The notes under the pieces are model-generated. The model was not told the origin of the DNA. It ran no database searches and was given only the letters and a program-made list of their open reading frames with translations. Shown here piece after piece: positions 508 to 21,470 of a stretch of DNA of 64,000 nt. Positions within the stretch are counted from its first letter, which is position 1; each line of letters starts with the position of its first letter. A program made the position numbers and the translations under genes. The DNA is from Gemmatimonadota bacterium (GTDB taxonomy: Bacteria > JAAXHH01): the NCBI GenBank assembly GCA_009837395.1, contig VXTP01000005.1, positions 62,001 to 126,000 on the forward strand, written 5' to 3'.

Positions 508-1503
508 TCAGGGTTTCTGGGTCAGCTTTTCTGCAATGTGCTTTCGTTCGTAGAGCATCGCGTGGATGTTATTCTCCTGAATTTGTGTACGATTGTGTAT
601 TAGTGCATCTTTCAGTGCTTCATTGGCAGCGCGGGTTATTTCAGCATAGCTCAGTCCCGTTGCTAAATCGGCTAAGCGCTCCCACTCGGTGTTTTCCGCG
701 ACGGATCCTGCAAGGTGTGTCTGCAGAAGTATGGAAATCTGCATCTTGTCTGGTAATTCGTAATGTAGAATGTCGTCAAAACGCCGGAATAGTGCAGAAT
801 CGAGAATTCCGGGGTGATTCGTTGCCGCCACCACGAGGCTGTGAGAGTGGTCTTGTTCGATCATTTGTAGAAAGCTGTTCAACACTCTGCGAATCTCACC
901 CACATCGTTTGTCAACCCACGCTGTGACCCGATGGCGTCGAACTCATCGAAGAAATAAACACCGCGAGTTCGGCTCGTCGCATCGAATACCTGCCGTAGT
1001 TTCGCAGCGGTCTCACCCATGTATTTAGTGATGAGACCGTCCAGTCGAACCTGGAAAAGAGGAAGGCCGAGTTCACCGGCCAAGACGAAGCCCGACATGG
1101 TTTTACCCGTACCGGGAGGTCCGGTTAGTAGCAACTTGCGCCTCGGAGCCAGGCCATGTTCAACTATCCGACTGGCTTGACGTTGTTCGCGTATGACGCG
1201 CTTTATCTGATCACTGAGCGCATCGCTCAGTACCATGTTTACCAACCGAGCCTTCGGGTATGATGCTTCCAGAAGTTCTGCTAGCTCGCCGGAAGGGCGG
1301 CTGATTGGGACCACGGAATCAGCGCCACGCCGTCTTTTGGCTTCGTCGATCAGGTTTCGTAGTTCTTCGGCAAGCTTGCCATGGCCCGACCTTGCTTCAT
1401 GGGCAGCGACTTGCATGGCGACAGAGTAAAATTGGTCGTCGTCACCTTCCAAATGCGACCGCAGCAATGCCTTTAGTTGATCGGCGCTGGCCATGGAATC
1501 CAT
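508..1503 (-). CDS. AAA+ ATPase of the S8-peptidase-associated type
   Basis: This 331-residue protein has one AAA+ module: Walker A GPPGTGKT at 128-135, Walker B YFFDEFDA at about 183-190, sensor-1 ATN at 227-229 and an arginine-finger-like LFRRFDD at 238-244. The first 90 residues form a helical domain ending in a linker. The module resembles proteasomal/FtsH-class unfoldases, but no protease domain is fused. The expected partner is the S8 peptidase immediately downstream, so the pair plausibly unfolds and cleaves a target. The first ATG is at 1503; a second at 1494 gives an N-terminus (MASADQLKALLRSH) that looks more family-like, and neither has a strong ribosome site. Predicted cytoplasmic. 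The biological target is unknown. Confidence 0.85.
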   Translation of the reverse strand: MDSMASADQLKALLRSHLEGDDDQFYSVAMQVAAHEARSGHGKLAEELRNLIDEAKRRRGADSVVPISRPSGELAELLEASYPKARLVNMVLSDALSDQIKRVIREQRQASRIVEHGLAPRRKLLLTGPPGTGKTMSGFVLAGELGLPLFQVRLDGLITKYMGETAAKLRQVFDATSRTRGVYFFDEFDAIGSQRGLTNDVGEIRRVLNSFLQMIEQDHSHSLVVAATNHPGILDSALFRRFDDILHYELPDKMQISILLQTHLAGSVAENTEWERLADLATGLSYAEITRAANEALKDALIHNRTQIQENNIHAMLYERKHIAEKLTQKP

Positions 1504-1843
1504 CCAGTTTTATAAAGTTAAAGTCTTTTCAACACTCTTTAACGTTACAACCAAGTATCGTCGCCACGCGCAAAACTCATTCCCTCGTACTTCCAATGTC
1601 TGGCTCGTTCTGTTCATCAGATGTAGAATGCCACACTCCTTTCGATTTCCGGATGCATTTAATGTAAACCTTATTCTGTTTCAGGACATCTCGTCATGGT
1701 GTCATCACGATAAGCAGAAGCGTTCGATTGACTTCCTTCATCGTAGGTCATCTTCATGGTAAATCCACCGTAGAGAGCTTCCTATGGTATTTTCCGATAC
1801 GAATGTTCTGTCGTCTGGATCTTCCCGCGTACATCTACAGTCA
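1504..1843. other. AT-rich gap without a supported gene
   Basis: Base composition falls well below that of the flanking genes. On the minus strand a short reading frame near 1690-1800 has a 28-residue ATG-initiated segment beginning MKMTYDEGSQ, with readable codons upstream of its ATG. This could be a remnant of a gene. I see no ribosome site or recognisable domain. The plus-strand ORFs here look random. Confidence 0.4.
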
Positions 1844-2251
1844 TTACGTTCCATCCTTCGGCAATGAAATCCTCGTAACGGGTTGTCCTACCTTCGACAT
1901 GTCCTTCTTGACCTTCGCGATCTTTTTCAGTATGGCCTCTGCAGATTCCTCTTTAGAATCGAACCGGGTTGTTCGCTTGATCGTAAGACGGTCCCCACGG
2001 TACGGGGAAATCGTGCTCTGCCAGTACTCTAAGAAGCCCTTTGGGATATCGGTTTTTCCCGATTCTTTCATCCTAGCCTTGATAGCTTCCTCGCTGTCCA
2101 TGTCATCAATGGCCTTCTCAAAGCCAGGAAGCCACCTTATGATGAAATCCAGCCCCGGACCCGGACCCTGAACCCAAACGCCTATAGGATGGAAGTATGG
2201 AGAATCAGGGAAATCTCTCAATTCGCATTCAATCATATACCTGAGCTTCAT
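1844..2251 (-). CDS. Hypothetical protein, 135 aa
   Basis: The start is taken at ATG 2251 (MKLRYMIECEL), which has GGGGA a few bases upstream; a longer reading from 2278 adds nine residues. The protein is soluble-looking: a short beta-rich N-terminus, a GPGPGLDF turn, then charged helices (SEEAIKARMKESGK, and KEESAEAILKKIAKVKKD near the C-terminus). No signal peptide, membrane segment or motif I recognise. It lies in AT-rich DNA between the AAA+ ATPase and the methylase gene, all on the minus strand, suggesting it was acquired with the island. Function unknown. Codon content and an intact frame support a real gene only moderately. Confidence 0.55.
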   Translation of the reverse strand: MKLRYMIECELRDFPDSPYFHPIGVWVQGPGPGLDFIIRWLPGFEKAIDDMDSEEAIKARMKESGKTDIPKGFLEYWQSTISPYRGDRLTIKRTTRFDSKEESAEAILKKIAKVKKDMSKVGQPVTRISLPKDGT

Positions 2252-2492
2252 ACATTCCCCATTGATATATTGAAACACGGCGTTGTTTTTGTTTTACCAG
2301 ACGACCTGTTCTTTAGAAGCTTCGGCTTAATAATAAAGATCATACTTCCACTTGATTCCAATTGTTCTTTTGTCCATCAATTCCATATCAGATTCTGGAT
2401 TGTTCCAGCTCTCCTTACTCTTCTGATTTTACCCCATATTACAACCGTTTTTTTACTCAACGATATTCTGTCACTCTTAGGTAATTCCATTA
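2252..2492. other. AT-rich spacer, likely promoter region for the 135-aa gene
   Basis: This is low-GC DNA with T-rich and A-rich runs between the methylase stop and the small hypothetical gene. No open frame with coding character is visible on either strand. It probably holds the promoter of the 135-aa gene and the 3' end of the restriction-modification transcript; no convincing hairpin with a U-run was seen. Confidence 0.4.
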
Positions 2493-5294
2493 TCAAACCC
2501 GAAACACCTTCATCACTTCGTCCCCGAGGTGATTAATCACTTTCACGGCAATCCGACCTGACGTCGGCTTGGCGAAGGGTCGAGAAGTGTCGCTGTGAAG
2601 GGTTTCCCAGGCTTCCTGGTTTATCTCGACTTTGAGCGTCGTCCGCAGGGCTTTGTAAGGGTCGCTGGCGCCGAGGAAGTAGGCGTGGCGAACGAAGAAG
2701 CTTTCTTCGTTGTAGTCGGTATCGACGAACCAGCAGGCGATGCCGTCGGCACTGTCGCTGCGAATTTCACCGGTGTTGGGGTGAAAAACATCGACTCCAT
2801 TTACCTTGACCTGGATTTGACCGTCTTCCGCATCAAGGATGTCGATATCGGGTTCGCCGAAGATGACGAAGAGATTGCCTTTGCCGGTGTTCTTGAGGTC
2901 GTCGGCCATGTGGAGGTCGGCGTTCATGCGGGCCTTGAGGACTGGGACGCGGCCGAGTTTGTCGAATTCCGAGGCGCGGGCGTCGTAGTTGAATGCACAG
3001 GAGACCAGCACGTCGAAGTCGGCGTCCGCAGCTTCCCGCACCGCTGATACGAGATCGGGGCGGGAGACGGTACCGAATTCAGGACCGACTAAGATGCCGG
3101 CACGTTTCTCAGTGCCCGAATCGCCCTCGCCTTCGACGTAGGTTCCTTCGGCGCAGACGAAATCACCCGGCCATGGTTTAATACCAGAGAAGGCGATATG
3201 GTCTTCTTTGTGTGCCTGTTGGACACCGGATGTTTTGAGATTGTCGAGAATCATCTCGGCGAAGTCTTGCTTCTCGCCATACCCTAATTTGGCTTCGGCG
3301 ACGCTGTCGATGAATTCGTCGTCTTCATCGACACCGAGTAGTCGGTGCGGCGACAGGCTTTCCACGGTAAACGGACCGGCAACGCGGACTTTCTTGTTGT
3401 CTTCGTAGGGTTTGTCATAGAGGTATTCGTAGTCGGCTTTGGCGGCGATCGATGTGTCGATTTCCTTTTGCCGGGCGATGCGCTGTTCCCACCAGTCCGC
3501 GTGGATTCCTTTAGCTTCCTCAGACCAATCTTTGTCTACGTCACGGGGGATTTCCCATTCCTCGAAGGACAAACCCAGTGCGGCGTTCAGTTCGTTACGC
3601 AACGGTTCTAGCGTTTCCTGGAATCTCTCCCATATAACGTCGATTTCGGCGTTGTTGGCGATGGCCTTGAGGGTGATGTGGGGGACGCGTTCGTACACGA
3701 AGCCTTGACGGACGTCATTGTACGTGGGCGTTTCAGAAGGTAACTTGCGGACCAGTTCGGCTTCTTTACGTTGGCCGTCGCGGCTGTCGGCAAGCAGGTA
3801 GTAGGGGTAGCGTGCACCCATGATACGGGCGCGGGCTAGCGCGAGTGCGACTCGGGAGGTATCGATGGTGATCCAGCGGCGTCCCCACTGCTCTGCTACG
3901 AATGCGGTGGTGCCGGAACCGCAGGTGGGATCGAGGACGAGATCGCCAGGGTCGGTGGTCATCAGGATGCAACGCTCGATAACCGTTGAAGCTGTTTCGA
4001 CAATGTATTGTTTTGTGGAACGCATGAGTACATCGGTCCAGATGTTGTTTATGGGAACTGCAGGATAATCATCGATATACATGACATAGGCGAGGTTCTT
4101 ACCTGTAGGAACGATTCGATTTGCCTGTATGACCCGATTCATTAAATCTGGATGAGTAGACCACTGGCGAGCATAAGGCGGTGTAAATTGACCTCCAAAA
4201 ACTGTAAGTGGGTTTTCACGATGGTAACTATTCTCATGCATTGAGCAAGGATTGGAATGTTTGAAAGGCCTTCCATAAGTAGGAACCAAATTCGGGTTAT
4301 TCTTCTCATCTCGAGTAAGAGGCCGCCGAAATCCGTCCGATAACTCAATTTGGTCGTATCTTTGTCCAGTGGACGCACCTATCCCAATTTCCTTCCGAGA
4401 AAACAGTTGTCGGTACTTTAACACTTCAATTTGCTTAGCATAAAAGAGTATGAAGTCTGATGTCATTGGCAGGTATTTCGATGTAGCTGTTCCACCTTTT
4501 TTTAAAAGGATTTCGCTGACGAAGTTCTCCTCGCCAAAAACCTCATCCATCAACGCCCGCACCCGATGTACATTCTCGTCACCGATCTGCACGAAGACCG
4601 ACCCGCTTTCCGTCAGTAAATCTCGTGCCACCGTAAGGCGATCCCGCAGATAGGTCAGATAGGAATGAATGCCGTCACGCCACGTATCGCGAAACGCTTT
4701 CACCTGTTCCGGTTCGCGAGTTATGTGTCCGGCGTTGCCGTCCTTGACGTCTCGGCTGGTCGTTGACCACTGGAAGTTGGAGTTGAACTTGATGCCATAG
4801 GGTGGGTCGATGTAGATGCACTGCACCTTGCCGCGCAGCCCCTCCCGTTCGGCAAGCGACGCCATTACCTGCAAGCTGTCCCCCAGTATCATCCGGTTCG
4901 ACCAGTTGGCGTCGTGCTGCTAGAACTCCGTCTGTGCGTCCGCACTCGGCAGGCCGTTGAAATCCGCAAACAGATCTGTCTGCACGTTCGATTCTCCGTC
5001 ACCTGTCTCCTTGCCCTGCTGTCGCAAATCGTCGATCAGAACCTTCGGATGTACCTTCTCCTGGATGAACAGAGGTGGCGCCTGCACCACCAGATCCGAC
5101 CAGTCCTTCTCATCTTTCCCCCGCCAAACAAGCTGAGGATCGAGATCCCGATTGCGCCGCTCATATGCGACCCTGATCGGACTGCGATCGTCCTCGGCCA
5201 GCATTGCCTGATACTCGGCCGTGGGGATATTCTTCCGCGATGCGTCCTGATGACGCAGGGTTTCAATTGTCTTATTCGGTTTTCGTTTCGCCAT
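2493..5294 (-). pseudogene. Type III-like DNA methyltransferase (mod), interrupted by an in-frame TAG
   Basis: One reading frame of 934 codons runs from ATG 5294 to the stop at 2493, broken only by TAG at codon 125 (4922-4920). The upstream part (MAKRKPNKT..., with RVAYERRNRDLDPQLVWRGKDE) and the downstream part (QHDANWSNRMILGDSLQ...) join exactly as in intact relatives, which I recall having Tyr at that position. The methylase core has DPPY at codons 163-166 and the SAM motif DPTCGSGTT at codons 455-463, the IV-before-I order of beta-class N6-adenine/N4-cytosine enzymes. The central region, about codons 270-425, is the likely target-recognition segment and is AT-richer. The res gene ends 17 bases upstream. 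It may be a nonsense mutant, a read-through gene, a two-peptide product (restart at ATG 4892) or an assembly error. Confidence 0.85.
4920..4922 (-). other. In-frame amber codon inside the mod gene
   Basis: On the minus strand the codons read ACG-GAG-TTC-TAG-CAG-CAC-GAC, i.e. Thr-Glu-Phe-stop-Gln-His-Asp. The frame is conserved on both sides, so a single base change (TAC or TAT to TAG) explains the break. The CAG after the stop matches the first half of the UAG-CAR-YYA leaky context known from tobamoviruses, but the next codon (CAC) does not match YYA. Confidence 0.9.
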
Positions 5295-5311
5295 TGCTTG
5301 TTTTCCTTTTG

Positions 5312-8300
5312 TCAGACAGCAATTTCATGACTGACGATGACAGTTTCGGTAATCGCTACCTGCCTGAATCTTTCTATCAATTCTCCAAACTCAGCCTTCA
5401 TGGTATGCACGTCCGTGAATTCAGCGAAGGCCCAACGACCGAACTCGCGGTTGTTATTCACACCCGGCACCCAGTAGGTATCCATCGTAAGTTTCTTAAT
5501 TATGGCATCCTCACCACGGTATCCCTTAATCTCTACGACCAGGTTCAGCAGATCGTCCTTGCCCCGACCGTCGTCTACCAGCACGATGAAATCGGGCAGG
5601 TAAGTCCGCGCCGTGGATCCGTACCGGTACGGCACTTCCAGCCCGAGGTTGTGGTTCTTAACGTAGGACCTCACGTGCGGATGCGATTCGGCGATTTGGC
5701 AAAATACACCTTCCCAGTCGCTGTCGAGAACGATCCAGTTTATATGGCTCTTATCAGGATCGGTTTGCCAGCGGTTGGTCTTTGTCGTATTGAAATTCAC
5801 CTGCATGGTCGATCCGGTCGAGTTGTAAGGATCCATCACCGCCTTGATCCGCCGAGTTCCGACGTTTGCCCTTGTGATGGCCGCGGCGATTCGTTCACAG
5901 GCCATGTCGGCCAGTTCCTGGTACATGAGTTGTGCCGGATAGGTATCGTCCTGACACACGAGGTAATTATCCAGCCACTGTTTCGTAATGCGCTTCAGTT
6001 GACCGAAGAGAGAAAGCATCGGCTCGTTGCCCGGATCGCGCATTTTCGTATACAGGAGTCTTTGAGTAAGATTGTATACCAGGCTTGCGTTTCGAAAATA
6101 GCGGGTGTGGCCGAGACTGAGGTCGATCCCCTCACCGATAATTCCTTGGTTCCTGGTGATGGTCGGTCCCACGAGGTCTGTGGTAAGTGTCATCACCGAA
6201 TCCGAGGTGAATTCGGCAGTAACGATTTCATCCGGCAACTCCACGCGGTAGCCGGAGACCCTCGGAAACCTGATTTCAAGATGATCTCGTTCCGGACGCA
6301 TCGCTCTTACATGAACCGTTTTCCGTGGGACGCTAGGTGGAGCTACGACGGGTTTTGCCGTGAAATCAAATGGTACACCCAGCACGTCCGCGTATTCGAC
6401 ATTGAACACGCCGTCGTCATTGAGATCATAGGACTGTCGCCGCAGCGCTCTGCCAACGACCTGTTCGCACAGGAGTTGAGTCCCGAACGCTCTGACACCC
6501 AGTACGTGGCTGACCGTATTGGCATCCCATCCCTCTGTGAGCATTGACACAGAAACGACACATCGAATCGAGTCCCCCAAACGCCCCGGTTTACCCACGG
6601 TATTCATGACTTCTCTAAGCAGGTCCTGCGGAGAGATGTCCTCGGCCCGCTTCCGGTCTCCGGTTCGCTCGATGATCTCGCGACGGAATCGATCGATCTC
6701 CTCGGCCGCTATCTTGCGGAAGTTGGGATCGAGCGCGTCACCGGATTCAAGCTGATGGCTATCAATCAGGAGCGTCCGTGGTCTACCGTGTCGCTTTCCG
6801 TTCTCGTCGTAATTATGAAACAACTCCAGACGTCCAGGTACGAATGATTGTTGGCCGCTTTCGTATTCTCTGTGGAAGCCTGAAATGTAGTCATAGACCA
6901 GTTTGGATGTCGATGTATTGTTGCAAACGACGATAAAGCACGGTGGTACCTCGATACCAGCCTGTTTCATCAATTTGAACGTCTTCTCATAGTGACCGTA
7001 TAAGGCTTGCAGTGCCGTCTCTAATTCCACCGGAATACTGAGTGGGTCAAGGAGACTGGCCTTGGTGAAACCCTTCTTCGGCATCTTCTTTCCGATATGC
7101 TCCCAGAGATTGCGGAGCTTGGGCATCTCTCCACCAGGGATGTTGTCGGAAACCGGGACGCGAGGCAGTTTTACGATACCGCTTTCGATGGCGTCCATGA
7201 GCGAGAACTCATTCATGGTCCATGGAAACAGCGTACCCTCCGCGTAACCTGAGCCGCGCAGAAAAAACGGAGTAGCCGAAAGGTCGAAAACACGGTTGAC
7301 GTTCAGTCTATTTCCGACTGTTTCCAAGCCGGTGATCCAGAGACGCGCGGCTTCCGTGTTCTGGTCTGCTTCCTTTTTGTCATCCCCTTTAAGTTTCTCC
7401 TCCTCCTGCTCCTTGGGGTTCTCACGATAGCAGTGGTGCGCCTCGTCATTGAAGACTACGACGTTCTTCATCCCCATGAGCTCGGGAATGACCCGCTGCA
7501 GCATTTGCCCTTCCGACTCCTCGGTCTCAATAGCCTGTCCTCGCCCCTGAAGAAGAGAGCGACCACCCTTGGACAGTTCGACTCGATCTCGCAGTTTGAA
7601 GGCATGGAAGTTTGTTATGACGATCCGCGCCTTCTCAAGATCTGGCAGCATGTCGTTCGGGACCAGCTCACGGCTCTGGTAGTAGCTGTCGGGGTCATTA
7701 GGTTGGAGGACGCGAAGGCGATCTTTGATGGTTATGCCTGGAGTCACGACAAGAAAGCCATTTGTGAAGCGCTGGCTTTGGGGATGTCGGACCGCATTGA
7801 TGGTCTGCCATGCGATCAGCATCGCCATCACAGTGGTTTTGCCGGCGCCGGTCGCCAACTTGAGTGCCAGGCGGGACAATCCGGGATTGGCGTAATTGTT
7901 GACGTTTTCGAGGTGTTCCAGGAAACGACGACCGGGTTGACCTTTCTTGGGCGCTACCTCGGTAAGCCAAATAGCGGTTTCGACCGCTTCGATCTGACAG
8001 AAGAATGGCCGTATGTCATTGAACTGGTGGTGTCGCCAATGATGGAGGAGGCGGGCCGTTATGGATGTTACTTGCCACTGGTTGGGGTTGGGGATTTGTC
8101 GCCATGCGTCGACTTGCCGTCGCACTGCATTGATGATCTCAGTATGTTCGTATTTCTGTAAATCTGTAGATACGTCTGCCGCTTCACCGAGGCCCAGATC
8201 CGCCTGTTGTGTAGAGGTGCCTTTTTGTTGCTTTGGTTTGGGTATCGGTGTAATGAACTCAGCCGGCCTCCGCCACGGACGAATATGTTGAGTCGGTTGA

Positions 8301-8383
8301 CCGGTTTCATCCAGCTCCCAATGGCTACCGGGATATTCATATGGCGAGTTGAGGATTGGCTGTTTAAAAAATCGGTCTGACAT
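5312..8383 (-). CDS. Restriction subunit: superfamily 2 helicase with C-terminal PD-(D/E)xK nuclease
   Basis: The 1023-residue protein has helicase motif I ATGAGKT at 177-183, a DEAH box at 313-316 (FNDEAHHC) and motif VI QVVGRALRR in the second RecA-like domain. Near the C-terminus PD at 930-931 and EIK at 951-953 fit a PD-(D/E)xK nuclease core. Length and layout match the BPTD_3080-type restriction endonucleases annotated beside type III mod genes. It would translocate on DNA and cut when methylation is absent. The start ATG 8383 gives the family-like MSDRFFKQPILNSPYEYP. It is first in a res-mod transcript with a 17-base gap. Unlike mod, this gene is intact, which matters because restriction without modification would be toxic. 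Confidence 0.9.
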   Translation of the reverse strand: MSDRFFKQPILNSPYEYPGSHWELDETGQPTQHIRPWRRPAEFITPIPKPKQQKGTSTQQADLGLGEAADVSTDLQKYEHTEIINAVRRQVDAWRQIPNPNQWQVTSITARLLHHWRHHQFNDIRPFFCQIEAVETAIWLTEVAPKKGQPGRRFLEHLENVNNYANPGLSRLALKLATGAGKTTVMAMLIAWQTINAVRHPQSQRFTNGFLVVTPGITIKDRLRVLQPNDPDSYYQSRELVPNDMLPDLEKARIVITNFHAFKLRDRVELSKGGRSLLQGRGQAIETEESEGQMLQRVIPELMGMKNVVVFNDEAHHCYRENPKEQEEEKLKGDDKKEADQNTEAARLWITGLETVGNRLNVNRVFDLSATPFFLRGSGYAEGTLFPWTMNEFSLMDAIESGIVKLPRVPVSDNIPGGEMPKLRNLWEHIGKKMPKKGFTKASLLDPLSIPVELETALQALYGHYEKTFKLMKQAGIEVPPCFIVVCNNTSTSKLVYDYISGFHREYESGQQSFVPGRLELFHNYDENGKRHGRPRTLLIDSHQLESGDALDPNFRKIAAEEIDRFRREIIERTGDRKRAEDISPQDLLREVMNTVGKPGRLGDSIRCVVSVSMLTEGWDANTVSHVLGVRAFGTQLLCEQVVGRALRRQSYDLNDDGVFNVEYADVLGVPFDFTAKPVVAPPSVPRKTVHVRAMRPERDHLEIRFPRVSGYRVELPDEIVTAEFTSDSVMTLTTDLVGPTITRNQGIIGEGIDLSLGHTRYFRNASLVYNLTQRLLYTKMRDPGNEPMLSLFGQLKRITKQWLDNYLVCQDDTYPAQLMYQELADMACERIAAAITRANVGTRRIKAVMDPYNSTGSTMQVNFNTTKTNRWQTDPDKSHINWIVLDSDWEGVFCQIAESHPHVRSYVKNHNLGLEVPYRYGSTARTYLPDFIVLVDDGRGKDDLLNLVVEIKGYRGEDAIIKKLTMDTYWVPGVNNNREFGRWAFAEFTDVHTMKAEFGELIERFRQVAITETVIVSHEIAV

Positions 8384-9004: not shown

Positions 9005-9508
9005 ATGCCGAAGGAAAAGAACTTACAACGAGGCTGCGAACCAGACTGGATGATCGATAATGCGAAAGCACTACGACGTGCCGCAAAGGAGTTAGAACAG
9101 CATAGGTCTAAAACCGATCAAACAGACAACTTACTCTTCCTGGGTGTGTTATTGGCTGTCCCAGATTTACTGTTGCTCGCGACAGAAATCGCACTGAAGG
9201 CATGGCATTGCAGGGAGCAAAATGTTGCTTCTAAACCCACTCATAATCTTTTAAAGTTGTTTGAATCATTGAATATCGAGACGCAAGAGCTAATGGAAGC
9301 CAAAATGCGGGAATTGAGTCACTACTCGAGATATTCTGAGGATCCACGTATGAAACACCAAAGTCTTGATGTACAAGAAATGTTCGGGGCAGTAATGAAT
9401 CCCTTGCGATACATCCTCACTTCACACGCTGACTTATACACGCGATGGAGGTATTTACACGAGGGCGTGTGTGCAATTTTGAATCTTCAGAGATCGATCA
9501 TGCACTGA
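9005..9508 (+). CDS. HEPN-like helical protein, 167 aa
   Basis: An almost entirely helical protein. It has a hydrophobic helix at 42-66 (LLFLGVLLAVPDLLLLATEIALK), then KPTHNLLKLFESLN, a pattern typical of HEPN-fold proteins. Near the C-terminus RWRYLH at 147-152 fits the R-x4-H motif of catalytic HEPN RNases. GAAGGA five bases before ATG 9005 supports the start. It follows the antitoxin-like remnant and the restriction system, and the DNA is AT-richer than the housekeeping genes. It could be a toxin or abortive-infection RNase, or a non-catalytic relative; the HEPN call rests on short motifs only. The hydrophobic helix is more likely part of the fold than a true membrane anchor. Confidence 0.55.
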   Translation: MPKEKNLQRGCEPDWMIDNAKALRRAAKELEQHRSKTDQTDNLLFLGVLLAVPDLLLLATEIALKAWHCREQNVASKPTHNLLKLFESLNIETQELMEAKMRELSHYSRYSEDPRMKHQSLDVQEMFGAVMNPLRYILTSHADLYTRWRYLHEGVCAILNLQRSIMH

Positions 9509-9665
9509 CCGTGTTGATTGATACATACGAGAAAAGGTGGCCTCCATATCGACTCGGTGTAATAAACCCTCTCAGTCGCTAGTAGTTGCTGCGGTTAGCG
9601 AAAGGGAACCTTGGATAGACGATTTACAGATTCCCCTCGCTGCTATAAACAATTCACTTAAAACC

Positions 9666-12296
9666 TCACTCCTTCACCACCCTCACCACCGGTACAACGC
9701 TCCGAGCCGACACCTCTCGCACCAGCGAAGCAAGGCCCGTCGGGGCGTCTTCATCGACGCCGAACTGGTTGACATCGTCATCGTCATTCCCGATTGTCGA
9801 TGCGACCCCGGTTTCCGCATCCAGGGTATACAGTTTGGCCGTCCAGCCGCCGGTCATGTACAAAACGCCTCTGTGTGAGGTCAGCCCGGTCGGCAGGTCT
9901 TCTCCTACACCGAAGTCAACCGCGTCGCCAACGGGTACCGCGATCCCGAAGTCAGGATTCAACACATAAAGTCGTGCCGTGCTGTAGCCGACCATGAACA
10001 GGCCGCCATCGTGGGACGCGAGGCCGTAAGGGTGGTCCTCGTCTACACCAAACTCCACGATATTACCGACCTGAGCGGCTTCTCCCGTCACGGCATTCAG
10101 CTCGTAAAGCCTGGCCTTCGTCCCGCCGGCCATATACAGGGTTCCATTGTGGGACGCCAGGCCCATGGGCTGGGACTCGCCGACCCCGAATTCCACGGCG
10201 TCGCCGATTCTTGTGGCCACACCCGTTTCCGGATCCAGCGTATACAGCGCCGCGTTCCATCCGCCCGTCATGTACAATTCGCCGTTATGCACGGTCAGTC
10301 CATAGGGCTGGTACTCGTCGACCCCGAACCGGACGGCTTCTCCCACGGGTTTGGCTTCCCCGGTATTAGGATTCAATCGATACAGTTGGTCGGCGCCTTC
10401 GCCAACCATGAACAGTCCTTCGGCGAAACCAGCTTCGTCGCACCGCGACCCCATCCATTGATCCAGGCCATCGACCCAGTTCAGCAAGGCCGGCGTACTG
10501 GGCAGACAAAGACCGTCGTTGTCGTGATGGAAAAACGTCATGACGTCCGAAAGACCCGAAAAAGTATCAGGAATCATGCCAATGAGCTCATTGTCATGAA
10601 GGTATAACACCTCAAGGTCGTCGAGTTGCCCCAGCTCGGATGGAACGGCTCCGGACAGTGCGTTGCCATGGAGATACAACACCTCGAGATCCTGAAGCCG
10701 TCCGAATTCGGATGGAATGGGACCGGACAGGTCGTTGTTATGAAGGTAGAGAAATTCGAGATTGGCGAGTTGGCTAAGTTCTAAGGGAATTGGTCCCGTA
10801 AGCTGGTTTCCATAGAGACTCAGCAGACGCAGCCTGGGTTGATCGCCTAAGACCGCCGGGATCTCACCGGAAAGATTGTTGGAGTTGAGGTACAGCACCT
10901 CGAGTTTGTGGAACTGACCCAGATCGGCGGGAATCGTTCCGGACAGTTTATTCTCATCGAGATCCAAGCGTTCCAGGTTTTGCAGTTGCGTCAATTCAAC
11001 CGGGATCTCTCCTGACAACTGGTTCCGCCAAAGGTTCAGAAACTCCAGGCTTTCCAAATCACCCAGTTCCGGAGGGATCGGACCGGTCAGTTTGTTCGTG
11101 TCCAGGTGTAGAATTTTCAACTGCGACAGCTGTCCTATTTCGGCTGGGATAGATCCGACAAGTTCATTGTTGTTCAGTTCCAGGTGCTCGATATTGGTGA
11201 GTTGACCCAGTTCCGGAGGGATCGGACCAGTCAGGTCATTGGCGCCAATATCCAACCGTGTCAGGCTGGTCATCTGCCCCAGTACTGCAGGGACCGATTC
11301 GGACAGTAGGTTGTTTCCGAGGTTCAGTATTTCCAGATGGTCAAGCAACGCGAGCGCAGCCGGAACGGATCCCGACATTTCATTTGCGCCCAGATCGATA
11401 ATCCTCAGTTCCTCGAGTCGAGAAAGTATGACCGGGATGGCGCCCGATATCTGGTTGCCCGCTAAATCCAGTTCCCGCAACAGCGACAGATTGACCAGGT
11501 GTTCAGGCAACGTGCCCGACAGGTTGTTCGAGCGCAGTTCCAGCCGGATCACACTACCGTTGGCGTCGGTCGTTATGCCGTGCCATTCGTTCAGGGGTTC
11601 CTCGCTCAGCCAGTTTTCAGCGTCCTCCCAATTCGGACCATCCAGGGCGTGGTAGAAATCGATCAGTGCGGTACGATCGCTGACATCGATGGATACCGTA
11701 ACCGTCACGCTGGCCGAAACCTCGCCGAAGGTAGCGGTCACGACCGCGCTGCCGCTTCTTATCGCCGTGACCAGGCCGTCGTCGCTTACCGTCGCCACGG
11801 ACTCGTCGCTGATCGACCATTTCACTACCGCGCCATCGACGGCCTGGCCGTTTTCGTCCAGCACCGATGCCTTCACCGTCGCGGTTTCGTCGGCCTTGGT
11901 CAGCATTACCGATGACGGCTCGATGGTAATCGTTCGCGCCGCCTGGGTTACGGTGATCGTGGACTTGCCCTGTTTCTGTCCCGCGGTGGCCGTGATATCC
12001 GCCGTGCCGTTGCTGAGCGCGGTGACGAGCCCTCCGCTGGTCACGGATGCCACGGACGGATTCCGGCTCGACCAGACCACCGAGTGATCCGACGTGGCAG
12101 CGCCGGCCTCGTACTGCACCTGCGCGTCGAGCTGCGCGGTCTGGCCGATCGCGGTCAGTGTAACCGCGTCCGGCGTCACGACTACGTTGGCCGGTCCGGT
12201 TGGCCCGGTGGGGCTGTCCTTGCCGCAGGAGACCGCCGCGAGAAACGCGAAAAGCGCGAGAAAACAGTAGAGATGGAAGACACGAGGGAGATTCAT
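9666..12296 (-). CDS. Secreted lipoprotein: two Ig-like (BIG2) domains, plant-type LRRs, C-terminal propeller-like repeats
   Basis: The start is taken at ATG 12296 because MNLPRVFHLYCFLALFAFLAAVSC is a lipoprotein signal with lipobox AAVSC; an 80-residue upstream extension is low-complexity and ignored. Two bacterial Ig-like domains follow, with repeated VxWSSxNPSVASV and GLVTA motifs. About 16 leucine-rich repeats of roughly 24 residues come next, in the plant form (LxxNxLSGxIPxELGxLxxL), headed by a cap containing DGPNWEDAENWL. The last 240 residues carry about five 50-residue repeats of the form GLxxHxGxLYMxGGxxAxLYxLxxxTGxAxxxGxAVxFGVxE, suggesting a beta-propeller. The protein is 876 residues and probably surface exposed. 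The role is likely adhesion or ligand recognition; no enzyme domain is seen. The upstream antiporter is 142 bases away. Confidence 0.85.
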   Translation of the reverse strand: MNLPRVFHLYCFLALFAFLAAVSCGKDSPTGPTGPANVVVTPDAVTLTAIGQTAQLDAQVQYEAGAATSDHSVVWSSRNPSVASVTSGGLVTALSNGTADITATAGQKQGKSTITVTQAARTITIEPSSVMLTKADETATVKASVLDENGQAVDGAVVKWSISDESVATVSDDGLVTAIRSGSAVVTATFGEVSASVTVTVSIDVSDRTALIDFYHALDGPNWEDAENWLSEEPLNEWHGITTDANGSVIRLELRSNNLSGTLPEHLVNLSLLRELDLAGNQISGAIPVILSRLEELRIIDLGANEMSGSVPAALALLDHLEILNLGNNLLSESVPAVLGQMTSLTRLDIGANDLTGPIPPELGQLTNIEHLELNNNELVGSIPAEIGQLSQLKILHLDTNKLTGPIPPELGDLESLEFLNLWRNQLSGEIPVELTQLQNLERLDLDENKLSGTIPADLGQFHKLEVLYLNSNNLSGEIPAVLGDQPRLRLLSLYGNQLTGPIPLELSQLANLEFLYLHNNDLSGPIPSEFGRLQDLEVLYLHGNALSGAVPSELGQLDDLEVLYLHDNELIGMIPDTFSGLSDVMTFFHHDNDGLCLPSTPALLNWVDGLDQWMGSRCDEAGFAEGLFMVGEGADQLYRLNPNTGEAKPVGEAVRFGVDEYQPYGLTVHNGELYMTGGWNAALYTLDPETGVATRIGDAVEFGVGESQPMGLASHNGTLYMAGGTKARLYELNAVTGEAAQVGNIVEFGVDEDHPYGLASHDGGLFMVGYSTARLYVLNPDFGIAVPVGDAVDFGVGEDLPTGLTSHRGVLYMTGGWTAKLYTLDAETGVASTIGNDDDDVNQFGVDEDAPTGLASLVREVSARSVVPVVRVVKE

Positions 12297-12438
12297 TCGA
12301 GCAGCCTTCTTTCTGGAATCCTTCGGTTTGCGGTTTTGCCTAAGTGAATCACAATACAGATCGACGCAAATTAGCGCATTAAATCGCAATTTCAAGTTGT
12401 TTTCAAACTGGAGTTTCAGGGCAGGATCCAGATCACTG

Positions 12439-14049
12439 CTACGTGCCCGACTTCGTCGGCGTCTGGGCCGCCACGTGCGCGGCGAATCCCGATCCGGCTT
12501 CCGCGTAGAGGTTGTATACGCTCGATGCGCCGGCATTTCTGAGCACCTCGACCTCGTCGGGGAACCTCGCCGTGGCGGCGACCTGGCAATAGGACGAGGA
12601 AGCCTTGAGCTGGTCGAGGACGGCGAGATTGGAGGCCAGATTCGGCAACGCCAGCAGTACCAGTTCGAGGTTATGACCAGCCTGAACGCGATCCCAGAAG
12701 TCCGCGTCGCTGGGATCGCCGAGTAGTACGTGGCGGCCGCTCGCTTGCTGCCTTTCCACCTTCACCGGGTCCAGGTCCACGCCGACGACGGTATCTCCGA
12801 ACCGTTGGCGCATATTGTCATAGGCCGCGGTGCCGACACGGCCCACGCCGATGATGGCGATCGTGGCTCCACCGGTATCGAGGGGCTGGTCATCGGGAAG
12901 ACGCTCGGTCTTCTGAAGCCGGTCCCACACCGACCGGTGCCGGGCGTAAATCTGGTGGGCGGCGACGTTGAGACCCGCCGAAATGGCACAGGACAGCGTC
13001 AGGGCCATCGCGATGACGATGAGCCAGAGGCCGTCGATCCATCCATTGGCCACGCCGATGACCGCTACGATGAGTCCGAACTCGCTGAAGTTGGTCAGGT
13101 TCAGCGTCGCGAGCAGGGCGGTGCGGGCACGCAGCTTGAACGCGGTCAACAGTCCGAAGAACAGCGCCGACTTCAGCAATACAAGCGGCGTAATGGCCGC
13201 GCCGATGAGCACCGCATCCAGCGTCAGTGGTCCGGAGAGCCCAATGGATAGAAAAAAGGCGACCAGGAACAGGTCCTTGAACCCGAGCATGGTCTTTGCC
13301 ATTTCGTTGGCTTTAGCGCTGTTGGCGATCAGTGCGCCCAGGGCCAGTGCACCCAGGTCGCCTTTCAGTCCGACCATCTCGAATACTTCCGCCCCACCCA
13401 GGGCGAGGAGCAGCCCGCTCAGCACCAGGAGTTCGCCGTGGCCGACTTTCTGCAGGACGAAAAGCAGCAGCGGACGCGCCGGTATGAGGAGCAGCACCAG
13501 CAACGCCCAGAGGGACGGCCACTTGCCCAGCGAGATCGCGATAAAGGCCACGGCGGCCAGGTCCTGCACGATGAGAATGCCGACCGCGATGCGGCCATGC
13601 AGTGCGGCCGTCTCCCCCTTGTCCTCGAGGACCTTCACGACGAAGACCGTGCTGGAAAAACTCAGCGCAAAGGCGATCAGCAATGACTGATAAAGTCCAA
13701 TTTCGGAAAAGGACGGGGCATTCAGCAGGGCGAGGATGAGCAGGACCGTTCCCAGGATCAGTACGACCAGCGCCATGTGCAGGCCGGTGACAGCCCAGAC
13801 CTGCGGGCGCGCGAAGGTCCGCAGGTTGAGCTTGAGGCCGACGACGAACAGCAACAGGGTAATCCCGAGGTCCGCCAGTTTCTGGAGCATTTCCCCGCTG
13901 GCGATACCGAACAGGTTGAGCACGAACCCGGCGGCGAGGAATCCGACCAGGGGAGGCAGTCCGATGGCCCTGGACAGCAGGCCCATCGCGAACGCCATGG
14001 CGATCCATGCGATGTCGCCCAGCGCAATGGCGATCCACACGAAATCCAT
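12439..14049 (-). CDS. Kef/CPA2-family cation:proton antiporter with TrkA-N domain
   Basis: This 536-residue membrane protein has about 12 hydrophobic segments in the N-terminal 390 residues, including the family-typical GLPPLVGFLAAGFVLN and FALSFSSTVFVVKVLED. A cytoplasmic Rossmann TrkA-N domain follows (IAIIGVGRVGTAAYDNM, GxGxxG). It resembles glutathione-gated KefB/KefC potassium efflux systems, in which nucleotide binding controls the channel. ATG 14049 (MDFVWIAIA) has AGGGG upstream and is preferred over 14070. It is a single gene on the minus strand. The KefF/KefG ancillary subunit is not seen nearby, so the exact substrate (K+ or Na+) is open. Confidence 0.9.
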   Translation of the reverse strand: MDFVWIAIALGDIAWIAMAFAMGLLSRAIGLPPLVGFLAAGFVLNLFGIASGEMLQKLADLGITLLLFVVGLKLNLRTFARPQVWAVTGLHMALVVLILGTVLLILALLNAPSFSEIGLYQSLLIAFALSFSSTVFVVKVLEDKGETAALHGRIAVGILIVQDLAAVAFIAISLGKWPSLWALLVLLLIPARPLLLFVLQKVGHGELLVLSGLLLALGGAEVFEMVGLKGDLGALALGALIANSAKANEMAKTMLGFKDLFLVAFFLSIGLSGPLTLDAVLIGAAITPLVLLKSALFFGLLTAFKLRARTALLATLNLTNFSEFGLIVAVIGVANGWIDGLWLIVIAMALTLSCAISAGLNVAAHQIYARHRSVWDRLQKTERLPDDQPLDTGGATIAIIGVGRVGTAAYDNMRQRFGDTVVGVDLDPVKVERQQASGRHVLLGDPSDADFWDRVQAGHNLELVLLALPNLASNLAVLDQLKASSSYCQVAATARFPDEVEVLRNAGASSVYNLYAEAGSGFAAHVAAQTPTKSGT

Positions 14050-14396
14050 CAGGCCACCCCTTCGTGTCAACAGTTCGTTGAGTTCGCAAATCGTACTGTT
14101 TGTCTACGTGCGCGTTCACTCGCGCACGGGCATTCACTCAATAACCAACCACGTTCTGCCGGTGTCAACGCAAAACCACGGTCGGCCGGTATCCAGTTCG
14201 GCTAGCGCTCACGTGACCATGCCGACTGCAGGTTTGGACGCACGGCCGGGAAGTCCGCTTGACGCCGCTTCCGTCTCCTGTTTCCTTGACGGTAAGTTGT
14301 CGGAAGTCAGCGCCAACTGGCGTCATCGCGGGGTAACCGCACTACGCGACGAGCGAATTATTCGAACAGCCCAAAGGCGCGGATTGGAGTGAACGA
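14050..14396. other. Intergenic region between divergent antiporter and DUF1801 genes
   Basis: About 350 bases separating divergently read genes, so promoters for both are expected here. Open frames crossing it have no coding character. I see no tRNA, riboswitch or terminator that I can defend. Confidence 0.4.
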
Positions 14397-14906
14397 ATGG
14401 CAGGCAAGACATCCAGGAAGTCTGCGAAGTCGGCATCAAAGTCGGCATCAAAGACCGGTGCAAGAGGTGACGCCGTGAAGGATCGCGCCAAAGGAAGTAA
14501 CCCGAAGCCGGTCCTCCTCTCGGGCGGGAACCCGCAGATCGCCAAGGCTGACGGCGACGCTCCGGTGCAGGCCTACATCGCGGCCATGCCGGGCTGGAAG
14601 AGCGATTTGGGACGCCGCCTCGACGAACTCATCGTCCGCACCGTGCCCGGCGTGCGCAAGGCCGTGCGGTGGAACTCGCCCTTCTACGGCATCGAGGGCC
14701 AGGGCTGGTTCCTGAGCTACCACGTATTCACGCGCTACGTGAAGGTGACGTTCTTGCAGGGCGCGGCACTGAGACCCGTTCCGCCCGGTTCGGGCAAGGA
14801 CAAGGACTCGCGTTGGATCGACATCTACGAGGGTGAACTCTATGTGGAGCAGATGGCGGTGTGGATAAGGCAGGCGGCCGCCATACCCGGCTGGCGCGGG
14901 TTCTGA
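14397..14906 (+). CDS. DUF1801 domain protein with basic N-terminal tail
   Basis: Residues about 55-169 match the DUF1801 (YdhG-like) fold: QAYIAAMPGWKSDLGRRLDELI, VRKAVRWNSPFYGI, and a C-terminal half ending RQAAAIPGWRGF. The biochemical role of the family is not established; relatives are small cytoplasmic proteins. The first 50 residues are a Lys/Ser/Ala-rich tail (KTSRKSAKSASKSASKTGAR) created partly by a 12-base tandem repeat. That tail could bind nucleic acid or be neutral expansion. Single gene, divergent from the antiporter. The start at 14397 is the only ATG that includes the tail; an internal start cannot be excluded. Confidence 0.75.
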   Translation: MAGKTSRKSAKSASKSASKTGARGDAVKDRAKGSNPKPVLLSGGNPQIAKADGDAPVQAYIAAMPGWKSDLGRRLDELIVRTVPGVRKAVRWNSPFYGIEGQGWFLSYHVFTRYVKVTFLQGAALRPVPPGSGKDKDSRWIDIYEGELYVEQMAVWIRQAAAIPGWRGF

Positions 14907-14978
14907 CGGCCGGTGAAGTTCTATGTTTGATTGGTGGCTCGATTCAGCAGGTTGAGAAACAGTCGGTAACTCGTCAAG

Positions 14979-15287
14979 TCAGCCCAGGGGCTTGTACCGC
15001 TGGACGTCAATCTCCCCTTCACGAGCGCGAATACGAGCGGCGTCGTACCATGCCTGCATTTTCAACAGCATGTCCATGTTTACGCCGAAGGCCTTTTCGA
15101 TACGCAAAGCCATCTCCGGCGAAAGCGAGGTGTTGCCTTTCAGCTGCGCATTAAGCGTTGCCGGGTGGACGCCGAGAATCTCGGACGCCTTCGTGACGCT
15201 GAGATCCAATTCCTCGAGAATCTCTTTGCGTATAAAGTCTCCCGGATGAGTGGGAGTCATTTTCACGTTGATCTCATTTGTGGCCAT
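14979..15287 (-). CDS. HigA-family antitoxin/transcription regulator (XRE-type HTH)
   Basis: This 102-residue protein has the HigA signature: MTPTHPGDFIRKEILEELDLS, a helix-turn-helix (VTKASEILGVHPATLNAQLKG) and ALRIEKAFGVNMDMLLKMQAWYDA. HigA proteins bind their own promoter and neutralise the HigB RNase. No HigB is present. The gene upstream in the same transcript is a DNA glycosylase whose TGA overlaps this ATG by one base (TGATG), implying translational coupling. It may therefore act as an autoregulator of the glycosylase or be left over from a TA pair. Confidence 0.85.
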   Translation of the reverse strand: MATNEINVKMTPTHPGDFIRKEILEELDLSVTKASEILGVHPATLNAQLKGNTSLSPEMALRIEKAFGVNMDMLLKMQAWYDAARIRAREGEIDVQRYKPLG

Positions 15288-15691
15288 CAGTGAAACTCCT
15301 CCAGGTTCAACTTGGCACCCTGGTGCACGGTTCTCCTACGATCCTTCGTATTATGCTCCGGGGTCAGTGGACAACCGCAGGGCTTCTCACACAACAGCTT
15401 GTACTGCTCGTCCAGTGAGTCGACAAGCGACTCCTGTACCTGGCTTCCGGTTGCTAGTCGTACGTCGAGCGGCGTCTTGTGCTGGTAACCACGCCGATGC
15501 ATCTCCACAACTAAAGCCTCGTGCCGGCTGTACAACGCCGCCAGTCGGCCGACCCACCGCTTCGTTTCCGGATGATTCCGGTAACCGGTTTTGCCCAGTG
15601 TGAGAACGTTCCAGAGCCCGTGCACCTCCCGGTGTTCACCCAGGAGGTGCTGTCGACAGAGAATCCTCGGAGGAAGGTCCCAGATTCGCAT
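15287..15691 (-). CDS. Pyrimidine-dimer DNA glycosylase (Pyr_excise family, T4 endonuclease V-like)
   Basis: The 134-residue sequence begins MRIWDLPPRILCRQHLLGEHREVHGLW and continues with HPETKRW and LYSRHEALVVEMHRRGYQH, matching the Pyr_excise family. Glu19 in LLGEHRE aligns with catalytic Glu23 of T4 DenV. The enzyme would cut the glycosidic bond at UV-induced cyclobutane dimers and nick the abasic site. T4 uses the alpha-amino group of Thr2; this protein has Arg2, as I recall for many bacterial relatives. Its stop overlaps the HigA-like start, an unusual partnership. The start ATG 15691 gives the expected N-terminus. Confidence 0.85.
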   Translation of the reverse strand: MRIWDLPPRILCRQHLLGEHREVHGLWNVLTLGKTGYRNHPETKRWVGRLAALYSRHEALVVEMHRRGYQHKTPLDVRLATGSQVQESLVDSLDEQYKLLCEKPCGCPLTPEHNTKDRRRTVHQGAKLNLEEFH

Positions 15692-15780
15692 TGTGTCAGG
15701 CTCCGAATTCGACGGGTCGACTTCCTACTTATACCATCGTCAAATTCGATTCCCAATGCAAGCATTCCGGCTTCATACCA

Positions 15781-15785
15781 GGAGG
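15781..15785 (+). promoter_or_regulatory. Ribosome binding site deciding the start of the 75-aa RHH gene
   Basis: GGAGG lies eight bases before ATG 15794. It shows that the protein starts at MKSKNTITLDEE and not at the far upstream ATG of the same frame. Confidence 0.8.
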
Positions 15786-15793
15786 ATGGAGTT

Positions 15794-16021
15794 ATGAAAT
15801 CCAAAAATACGATTACACTGGACGAGGAAATCGTCAAGCAACTCGATTATCTAATCATGCAACAGGCATACAAGAACAGAAGCCAGACTATTGAGGAAGC
15901 CGTGTCGGAGAAGCTGGATCGTCTCAAGCGGGGACGACTGGCGAGGGAATGTGCGAAACTGGATCCGGTAGAGGAACGGGAACTGGCTGAAGAAGGGCTT
16001 TGGGAGGTTTCTGGTCTGTAA
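15794..16021 (+). CDS. Ribbon-helix-helix (CopG/MetJ-like) antitoxin-type protein, 75 aa
   Basis: The N-terminal strand-helix-helix pattern (MKSKNTITLDEEIVKQLDYLI ... NRSQTIEEAVSEKLDRL) is a ribbon-helix-helix DNA-binding domain. The acidic C-terminus (CAKLDPVEERELAEEGLWEV) is the kind of segment that wraps a PIN or MazF toxin, and its ECAKLDPVEERELAEEG pattern is common in such antitoxins. No toxin follows: the next gene is convergent. The gene appears to be an orphan antitoxin or a free-standing repressor. The start is fixed by a strong Shine-Dalgarno sequence. Confidence 0.8.
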   Translation: MKSKNTITLDEEIVKQLDYLIMQQAYKNRSQTIEEAVSEKLDRLKRGRLARECAKLDPVEERELAEEGLWEVSGL

Positions 16022-16122
16022 CTACCGAATGGGGAACTGCCGGCCCCCTGGGTATCAGGCTTACGGCCACTGGTTTATTCGTTCACATTTACAGTATTGA
16101 GTAAAATCACTCAATAGCGTAA

Positions 16123-16347
16123 TCACCGCTCATTCATCTCTTCTCTTGTGAATCTCCTTCCGCCTGTCCGAATACTACGCTGTGCCTCTCGAATGGTTGT
16201 CATTGCTGCGGTAATTCGCTGTTCCCGTTGAACATAACTCTCCAGCCATAACCGGAACTGCTCGTTCAACGTCGTGTTTTCCGATGACGCCCTCCGCCGC
16301 GCAGCTTTAATCAGTTGCTCATCCGCGCTGAATGTGATGTTCTTCAT
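16123..16347 (-). CDS. Small antitoxin-like protein, 74 aa
   Basis: The N-terminus MKNITFSADEQLIKAARRRASSENTTLNEQFRLWLESY fits the short ribbon-helix-helix antitoxins paired with VapC/PIN toxins. The C-terminal tail (RTGGRRFTREEMNER) is also typical. No toxin gene lies downstream; the next minus-strand sequence is the convergent RHH gene region. It sits 29 bases downstream of nothing recognisable and 30 bases from the TPR gene end. Probably an orphan antitoxin or a self-regulator. Confidence 0.7.
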   Translation of the reverse strand: MKNITFSADEQLIKAARRRASSENTTLNEQFRLWLESYVQREQRITAAMTTIREAQRSIRTGGRRFTREEMNER

Positions 16348-16376
16348 GGTCGCCTCCCTCTCATCCTTGCTTCCAC

Positions 16377-18026
16377 CTACCGGCAGAAGCAGGACGTTTC
16401 AATGGGGATGTCGGCGCGGGCCTTGGCGAACGCCAGCCGCTGTCGCAGGAGTTGTAGCTCGGTGGCGTCTCCCGCGTGTTCGACGCATTCCACCAGTCCC
16501 TGGAGCGCCCACACGTTGTCGGGATGCTGGCAGCAGCGCGGCAGGCTTCGGTCGTAACCGAGGTCGGCGCGATACACAGCTTCGGCTTCATTGAATTCGC
16601 CCTGTTCGGCGAGCAGCGCGCCGAGGGCGTGACGCGGGGGATGCATCCAGGCCCAGGGCTCGGTGTAATTGAGCGCGTCGTCCCGCGAGACGGCGAGACG
16701 AAGGCTGTCGAACGCTCGGCTGTAGTTCCCCTTGCGGTATTCCAGCTCGCCGTCGAGCATGGCCTCGCCGATGCGGAGCATGTCGCGCACCGTGTTGCTC
16801 AAGAATATCGCGTCCTCGGAAATCACGGACGCAGCCCGGTCGAACGCTTCACGGGCAGCTTCGGCTTCTTCGATTTGACCGAGGGCGGCGTGCGCCACGC
16901 CTTGTCCGTAGGCGTGCACGGCGGTTTCGATCGGACGAAGAGCGGGCTCCTCCGGTTCGGGAGATGCAATCAGGTCGTGCCAGCGGCCGAAGCGAACCAG
17001 GACGTGGATGGTCATGGCGGAGTAGCCGTCGAGGATGGAGGCCATGAAAGGCGCGCTCCCGGCGATCAGTTCAGGCGTGGCCATCGCACGGATACGGTCG
17101 GCGGCTTGGGTGGCCGTGCCGTACTGCCCGAGAAACATGGCCACGTACATGTAGAGATGGAGATCGTGACACCGCATGGTGGTGTAGAAGTTCTGGTCGC
17201 CGGCGTAGTCGAGGTACTTGTCGTCGGCCGCGACCGCCCGTTCGCTCTGGACCACCGACTGCGCCCAGTCGCCGCAAAGTACGTAGATGTGCGCCGACAT
17301 GTGCTCCAGGTGGCCGGCATCGGGCAGCAGCCCGCGCAACAAGTCGGCCGCGTTGAGCCCTTGCTCCGGTATGGGCGACATTTCCAGCATATGGATGTAC
17401 AGGTGGCAGATCCCCGGATGGACGGGCCCGTCACGCGCGATCCGATCCATCCAGGATTCCATCATCGGCAAAACCTCGGCCGTGTGGCCGCGCGGGTTGG
17501 GTTGCCCGGTCCGTAGATCCCAGAGCTGACGGGGCGTGCAGTTCAGCGCCGCGTCGAAATAGAAGGCGGCGATGTCGGGATCATCCTCGTGCGCCTGGCT
17601 GGCGTCGCGCATCGCGTCGGCGAAATCCCGGTGCCAGGCGTCCAGCACCCCGGTGTCGCGCTCGTCGCCGTTCCGGTACCGTTTCGCCAGCGCCTCGATG
17701 AGGGCCTGTTCGGCCGGCGTACCGTCACCGACGAGCGAGACCGCGGTCGTCACCGCGTCGTGGCAAACCGGCAGGACCCGGGCGATCTCGGCTTCGGTGA
17801 ATCGGATCCAGGCCCGGTTGTAGTGGGGTCCGTTTGCATAGGCGATCCCCCACCAGGCCATCGCGCAGGCGGGGTCCGCGTCGGCCGCACGCCTGAAGCA
17901 ATCCACCGCTTCCTCGTGGTTGAAACCGTAGGTCCAGTTCAACCCGCGGTCAAACCAGCACTGGGCGGCATCCGAGTCCGTCGTGATTTTGCGGGACCAG
18001 GTTCCAAGATCGAAAGGGTAGCTCAT
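16377..18026 (-). CDS. Tetratricopeptide-repeat protein, 549 aa
   Basis: ATG 18026 (MSYPFDLGTWSRKITT) is chosen over 18065 because the family begins there. TPR-like helical pairs are clear: AAQCWFDRGLNWTYGFNHEEAVDCFRRAADADPACAMAWWGIAYANGPHYN near the start, and others toward the C-terminus (FNEAEAVYRADLGYDRSLPRCCQHPDNVWALQGLVEC). There is no signal peptide or enzymatic motif; the N-terminal HEEAVDCF...MAWWG pattern resembles uncharacterised TPR proteins of environmental bacteria. Likely a cytoplasmic scaffold. Function unknown. It is co-directional with the PhnD-like gene, 100 bases downstream of it. Confidence 0.8.
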   Translation of the reverse strand: MSYPFDLGTWSRKITTDSDAAQCWFDRGLNWTYGFNHEEAVDCFRRAADADPACAMAWWGIAYANGPHYNRAWIRFTEAEIARVLPVCHDAVTTAVSLVGDGTPAEQALIEALAKRYRNGDERDTGVLDAWHRDFADAMRDASQAHEDDPDIAAFYFDAALNCTPRQLWDLRTGQPNPRGHTAEVLPMMESWMDRIARDGPVHPGICHLYIHMLEMSPIPEQGLNAADLLRGLLPDAGHLEHMSAHIYVLCGDWAQSVVQSERAVAADDKYLDYAGDQNFYTTMRCHDLHLYMYVAMFLGQYGTATQAADRIRAMATPELIAGSAPFMASILDGYSAMTIHVLVRFGRWHDLIASPEPEEPALRPIETAVHAYGQGVAHAALGQIEEAEAAREAFDRAASVISEDAIFLSNTVRDMLRIGEAMLDGELEYRKGNYSRAFDSLRLAVSRDDALNYTEPWAWMHPPRHALGALLAEQGEFNEAEAVYRADLGYDRSLPRCCQHPDNVWALQGLVECVEHAGDATELQLLRQRLAFAKARADIPIETSCFCR

Positions 18027-18126
18027 GGCGGATTGCTCGTGGTTGATCGGCGGCTTGCATATCATCGGCCAGTTGATCGCGGCCGGTAGATCAGCGGCCG
18101 GTTTACGTGGCCGGCGGTCGATGGCG

Positions 18127-19017: not shown

Positions 19018-19152
19018 GACTTTACTATAGGCAGTTTACTTTAAATGTTGAGGTAAATGAAGCAATCGTTTAAACTACTTGGTCAGCGATCAATGCGCAA
19101 TCGATCGCCGATCATGATCTTCCACAGGCCGGAGGCCGGAGACCGAAAACCA

Positions 19153-20490: not shown

Positions 20491-20585
20491 GCCGTTTCGG
20501 CCTTGACGCTCCTCCCCTTTCCGCCTAACTTCCTCCCCATAAAACCGACCAGCCAGAACCTCAAGAAGCGCCCCGGAGGCTAAGC

Positions 20586-21431: not shown

Positions 21432-21470
21432 CTGAAGGACCTACGACAGGTCCGCTTACTGCAGTACGGC

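Follow-up and report, generated by a model that had tools for sequence, protein, structure and literature searches.

In the type III restriction-modification (R-M) systems EcoP1 and EcoP15, the methylase subunit (Mod) increases the amount of the restriction subunit (Res), which it has been proposed to fold and protect, and in a likely model the site is bound by Mod, which directs Res; stop-codon suppression was also once proposed for the production of Res in EcoP1 (these points as given in the extracts of PMC3874151). Cutting by MmyCI is described as requiring Mod and Res, with ATP, and the same source reports living Mycoplasma mycoides cells with an early-ending mod frame, and the abolition of cutting in vitro on removal of either subunit (extracts of PMC3498834). 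Premature stops after the DPP motif of modB1 in some strains of Neisseria (extracts of PMC2667262) and truncated type III methylases in M. agalactiae (extracts of PMC9465063) have likewise been reported, and type III mod genes are described as often phase-variable through slippage in repeat tracts (PMC2667262, PMC3498834, PMC9465063). The published cases do not all have an active Res, because in Haemophilus and Neisseria phase-variable mod genes are reported to be accompanied by res genes with inactivating mutations (PMC2667262). Our literature search found no paper naming BPTD_3080, the NCBI family of the Res described below, and nothing on loss of the methylase alone.

A type III-like locus with a TAG inside mod

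The locus belongs to a Gemmatimonadota bacterium (JAAXHH01; assembly GCA_009837395.1), and the window analysed is the 64,000-nt stretch at positions 62,001-126,000, forward strand, of contig VXTP01000005.1. Its relevant features, with one gene just outside it, are as follows.

4920..4922, minus strand: TAG in the frame of mod, the type III-like methylase gene, at codon 125 (sequence; Tyr in the relatives).
4920..5294, minus strand: mod fragment 1, 124 codons plus TAG, starting at ATG 5294 with AGGA 9 nt upstream (ORF, profile match).
2493..4892, minus strand: mod fragment 2 from ATG 4892, 799 aa, with the DPPY motif IV, variable region, DPTCGSGTT motif I and C-terminal region; without a convincing Shine-Dalgarno sequence.
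5312..8383, minus strand: res, BPTD_3080-family restriction endonuclease, 1023 aa, open over its full length (NF046055, 1332.9 bits, cut-off 800).
508..1503, minus strand: IetA-like AAA ATPase (profile matches).
G000:C34:59961-61931, just left of the window: IetS-like subtilase, partner of the IetA-like ATPase.
1844..2278, minus strand: 144-aa ORF, flanked by mod and the IetA-like gene, without a family match.
9005-9508, plus strand: 167-aa ORF beside the R-M system, without a family match.

Mod shows the beta-class order (DPPY, variable region, AdoMet motif) of type III systems such as EcoP15I and EcoP1 (Mod structures 4zcf, 6k0w and 7dsu), and both DPPY (D163-Y166) and the AdoMet motif (D455-T462) were invariant in an alignment of 36 rows; the Pfam match was to PF01555 (E 7.5e-31). 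Its alignments to the three solved Mods lie within residues 119-292 and begin only at query residue 119, 125 or 131. Res also resembles type III Res subunits: a Walker A motif (GAGKT), a DEAH box and a C-terminal PD..ExK motif (PDF...EIK) were recognized by eye in the translation, and PF04851 (ResIII) matched with an E value of 2.2e-8 and PF19778 with 5.3e-4, below its cut-off. The locus differs from EcoP15I in the length of Mod (933 aa vs. 644 in the EcoP15I chain), and from both EcoP15I and EcoP1 in gene order, res being upstream of mod on the same strand with a gap of 17 nt. Against the PADLOC REase_III model, Res reached an E value of 5e-4 only. The 144-aa and 167-aa ORFs had no match in Pfam, PADLOC or NCBIfam. 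An AlphaFold2 model of Mod (36 rows; mean pLDDT 57.3, pTM 0.35) was obtained, and no conclusion was taken from it.

The initial annotation, made from the sequence alone, described an in-frame TAG in an otherwise intact type III methylase gene, and this description holds. The minus strand reads ACG GAG TTC TAG CAG CAC at the site (TAG, 4922..4920), after which the mod frame continues for 808 codons without interruption and closes with the stop at 2495..2493. Codons 1-124 and 126-934 had been given as one conserved protein broken by one TAG; both the single protein and the single TAG were confirmed, but the length is 933 residues when TAG is read through, 934 including the final stop. The PADLOC model PDLC03632 (MTase_III) matched the two pieces consecutively (profile positions 73-154, E 1.5e-38, and 165-983, E 0), and the joined pieces scored 1422.5 bits; since consecutive stretches of one profile are matched, the pieces are one gene and chance juxtaposition is ruled out. 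The ATG at 4892, which had been suggested as a restart, is present in the mod frame, and the nine codons between TAG and this ATG encode the family consensus QHDANWSNR. TAG precedes the catalytic DPPY motif. Mod has no complete reading frame, and the copy is a broken member of the family, not a complete system. A coding-potential scan of contig C34 for frames bridged by a stop returned 61 places including the mod stop, most of the others presumably being shadow frames or adjacent genes in the same frame.

Codon 125 in relatives and the preservation of mod and res

Tyr occupied the codon-125 column in all 121 relatives read there, as the initial annotation had stated, and a stop in none; this count comprises 110 relatives collected first (80 genome-contig, 17 viral-contig and 13 whole-genome loci) and 11 later loci, including 3 plasmids, the genome-contig loci being the best 80 of 587 relatives, a selection that favours intact genes, and one of the six peptide search patterns (FYQHDANW) contains the Tyr itself and biases the 97 loci found by pattern. 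The 13 loci found without a Tyr-containing pattern (L003-L015) had Tyr in every case. Locus L189, being the gene already represented by L004, was left uncounted, and L183 and L185 end short of the column. Outside the count, 16 more distant loci (L016-L031) comprised 13 that were short of the column, one with Phe and two with a gap.

The annotation had also raised homologues with a natural split at this position. In the 110 relatives no break fell on codon 125 or beside it, and the stop there was found in this genome only; the nearest break was in one distant relative (L194), whose frame is broken 17 residues further on. In the class of genome G060, 6 of the 63 genomes matched and no stop was present in the 9 matches listed; the phylum search around G132 covered 2 genomes. 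The viral_contigs set contained no exact match to a 30-base pattern spanning codon 125 in which the third base of that codon was left free. The plasmid search matched 741 records, 37 of them over at least 80% of the query, and the phage search 173 records, none over 80%; the 3 plasmids inspected were picked for their two-piece matches and so give no measure of how often such breaks occur.

The rest of mod was unusually well preserved. With codon 125 excluded, none of 310 near-invariant columns deviated in the Mod of the window (median of 2 over 98 sequences, leave-one-out). In branch counts based on four sequences, the ratio was lowest for the window, with 15 amino-acid changes against 49 silent ones (30 and 23 for L033, 78 and 60 for L032, 79 and 102 for L036), and 11 amino-acid and 45 silent changes when only the part after TAG was considered. 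Because of this preservation, the stop would be very recent, or an error, or tolerated: either purifying selection acted on mod up to a very recent time or acts on it now, or the stop is an artefact.

The claim that the restriction subunit is intact stands for the reading frame, which is open over its full length, but less well for the residues: 10 of 380 near-invariant columns were substituted (rank 5 of 75, the highest other member having 19), and two of these substitutions, E893V and R896Q, fall in the stretch marked by PF19778 (880-958, nuclease domain). The Res branch carried 57 amino-acid and 69 silent changes, a mid-range value. We do not call Res dead from these changes.

Broken relatives, genomic context and the preferred reading

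Lesions of mod were present in 4 of the 110 relatives: a stop in L065, frame changes in L006 and L013 (both near residue 580) and a deletion with a frame change in L154. In Methylomonas lenta (L065, 5001-7799), mod is interrupted in frame by a TAG at the residue-315 position, and the adjoining res ORF encodes 1025 aa. On the Rhodococcus ruber plasmid NZ_CP023713.1 (L173, 5959-10253) an IS3 element lies inside the methylase gene and Res aligns over 6-1004 with no stop, and on the Sphingomonas aliaeris plasmid NZ_CP061036.1 (L175, 6001-8933) the Mod frame, which has no listed gene, changes between residues 351 and 372 (near 360) and Res aligns over 1-1003 with no stop. These three loci thus resemble the window in having a broken Mod beside a near-full-length Res without stops, but differ from it in the lesion, none of them being at codon 125. 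Lesions were also present in the res of some relatives: TAG in L063 (818) and L110 (359), and frame changes near residue 470 in L060 and L085 and at the very start in L096. A Res match was obtained at the locus in 96 of the 110 relatives, some of the other 14 being short or at contig ends.

A natural division of mod near residue 580, considered for L006 and L013, was rejected: L006 carries a duplicated segment between its two frames, and in L013 the frame changes, both of which are read as ordinary breaks or assembly faults. The duplicated segment of L006 (about 1401-1540) is a short piece of mod that occurs a second time close by, with a frame shift between the copies.

The R-M system follows, in order, ZacA-, ZacB- and ZacC-like genes and the IetS- and IetA-like genes; the island genes left of the window lie at 9604-15780 and 17961-19928 of locus L172 (G000:C34:42001-62000), and a tRNA-Asn gene is located about 9.4 kb before ZacA. 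The IetA-like protein scored 214 bits against the NCBI IteA model, far under its cut-off of 510. The G+C content of mod and res (54% and 53%) is below that of the window (61%). The Mod search found no close relative in the 11 congeners (best E 4.5e-17), all of which share DNA, in part, with positions 14300-21500 of the window. From its composition and distribution the R-M system looks acquired and dispensable, and null alleles are therefore to be expected. A second N6/N4 methylase-family gene is present in the same genome (L193, G000:C23:207700-208326).

We consider the best explanation to be that mod of this type III-like, BPTD_3080-family system carries a single, recent and genuine nonsense mutation at codon 125, which makes it a null allele of recent origin within an acquired defence island (probability of about 0.6), because Tyr is constant in the relatives, the near-invariant columns of Mod are undisturbed, the ratio of amino-acid to silent changes is low and breaks in mod are nothing unusual in relatives. 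We infer that the mutation is real and not a base-call error. Translation would then stop after a peptide of 124 residues, before DPPY, and no full-length Mod would be made beyond background read-through; by analogy with the studied type III enzymes, Res would be incapable of cutting without Mod, the whole system would be silent and the cell unharmed.

A dead methylase beside an intact Res had been expected to be lethal. This premise holds for many type II systems. It fails for the type III systems studied, in which, according to the extracts cited above, both subunits are needed for cutting, and Res of the BPTD_3080 subfamily probably depends on Mod in the same way. The apparent paradox of a dead methylase and a live nuclease thus comes from type II logic carried over to a type III system, and a mod gene with a premature stop is in an ordinary off state, other members of the family also pairing a broken methylase with an open Res. 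The off-state modB1 of Neisseria and the mod genes of M. mycoides and M. agalactiae are comparable, as far as the extracts of these reports go, in that the frame ends early and the strain lives; in the Mycoplasma cases res stands alongside, as here, but the lesions are repeat-tract frameshifts, whereas here there is a single in-frame stop without repeats. For annotation, this defence system should be counted as active only on the basis of reads or methylation data.

Alternatives to a null allele

An error in sequencing or assembly, or a consensus base that comes from a minority strain, so that the living cells mostly have an intact mod, is the first alternative to be weighed, and we regard it as clearly less likely than a real mutation. 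One base would account for everything, the remainder of mod being undecayed, and the assembly consists of 47 contigs with a completeness of 95.61% and a contamination of 2.97%; however, the sequence bears no mark of an error, the site is free of homopolymers, and breaks in mod occur in relatives too.

The readings in which Mod is still made, by read-through, as two peptides or after a reversible switch, are improbable even when taken together. Slightly less probable than the three combined is a leaky-amber control of dose, in which a little full-length or two-piece Mod would keep methylation and restriction low but alive; the strong conservation past the stop also fits such a still-working gene.

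Read-through of TAG on its own, giving a leaky, low-dose methylase, is very unlikely. Basal misreading of UAG exists in bacteria, and conservation is strong past the stop, including the nine codons for QHDANWSNR; the suppression proposal for EcoP1 Res cited above also counts in its favour. On the other side, the stop is shared by none of the 121 relatives, and its recency explains the conservation equally well. The search for an amber-suppressor tRNA that had been recommended found no CTA anticodon among the 44 tRNAs of the genome; this search is incomplete, because Ile-GAT and Ala-TGC genes are also missing among the 44 and the assembly thus lacks some tRNAs. The RNA around the stop had no stable fold (z +1.27; 187 of 200 shuffles folded at least as well).

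An enzyme of two peptides (124 aa, and 799 aa restarted at ATG 4892, 27 nt past the stop codon) is less likely still. Re-initiation shortly past a stop is known in bacteria, ATG 4892 just precedes the conserved GDS..DPPY core, and the alignments to the solved Mods begin only at the residues given above; but only a 3-nt GGT match to the anti-Shine-Dalgarno sequence lies upstream of this ATG, vs. AGGA at the true start, and in none of the 110 relatives did a break fall on codon 125 or beside it. In a phmmer search the EcoP15I Mod match began at query residue 125, corresponding to EcoP15I residue 87, and the MTase domain of EcoP15I Mod is given as residues 62-262 (extracts of PMC4490356); because the match starts inside this domain, a clean two-domain split at codon 125 is not suggested.

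The distant copy L194 (G113:C34:6500-13500) also counts for two peptides, as it is in two ORFs (1003-1503, 166 aa, covering Mod residues 3-141, and 1497-5840, covering 143-931; break at residue 142), with a TGA overlapping an ATG, a layout which allows coupled translation. Counted from its first TTG, the second ORF is 1447 aa long, and its matched stretches are separated by gaps. For L194 we favour the simpler view of an indel or a fault of assembly, because the frame is about one base off a continuous one, in a T run, and the other copy of the same genome (L006) is frame-broken as well; moreover, Tyr is kept. A weak Res match beside L194 also changes frame, near residue 230.

Reversible phase variation, which the initial annotation had listed and for which the frequent repeat slippage of type III mod genes would speak, is hardly credible, as the stop is of the substitution type and the site has no tandem array or slippage repeat, the sole array listed in mod being 1.9 copies of 10 bp at 2574-2592 and the repeats near the stop one weak 24-nt direct pair, one 9-nt direct pair and two short inverted repeats.

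A general recoding of TAG, already judged unlikely in the annotation, found no sign in its favour: besides the tRNA result, proteins with PVT and GGQ motifs and with SPF and GGQ motifs, which we take to be RF1-like and RF2-like respectively, are both encoded by open frames. The ORFs that end at 43935 and 30763 do close with TAG, as had been said, and TAG ends 11 of the 53 window ORFs chosen by composition, some of which may not be genes. The four stops inside the mod and res alignments of relatives, together with that of the window, are all TAG, and that of L033 (RES 1011) sits at the variable C-terminal end. This pattern is not read as recoding, since TAG has a large share of the one-step paths to a stop, with 139 of 327 paths in mod and 155 of 346 in res. 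Among the weaker Mod matches listed, other stops do occur, TAA three times and TGA once, the latter in L194.
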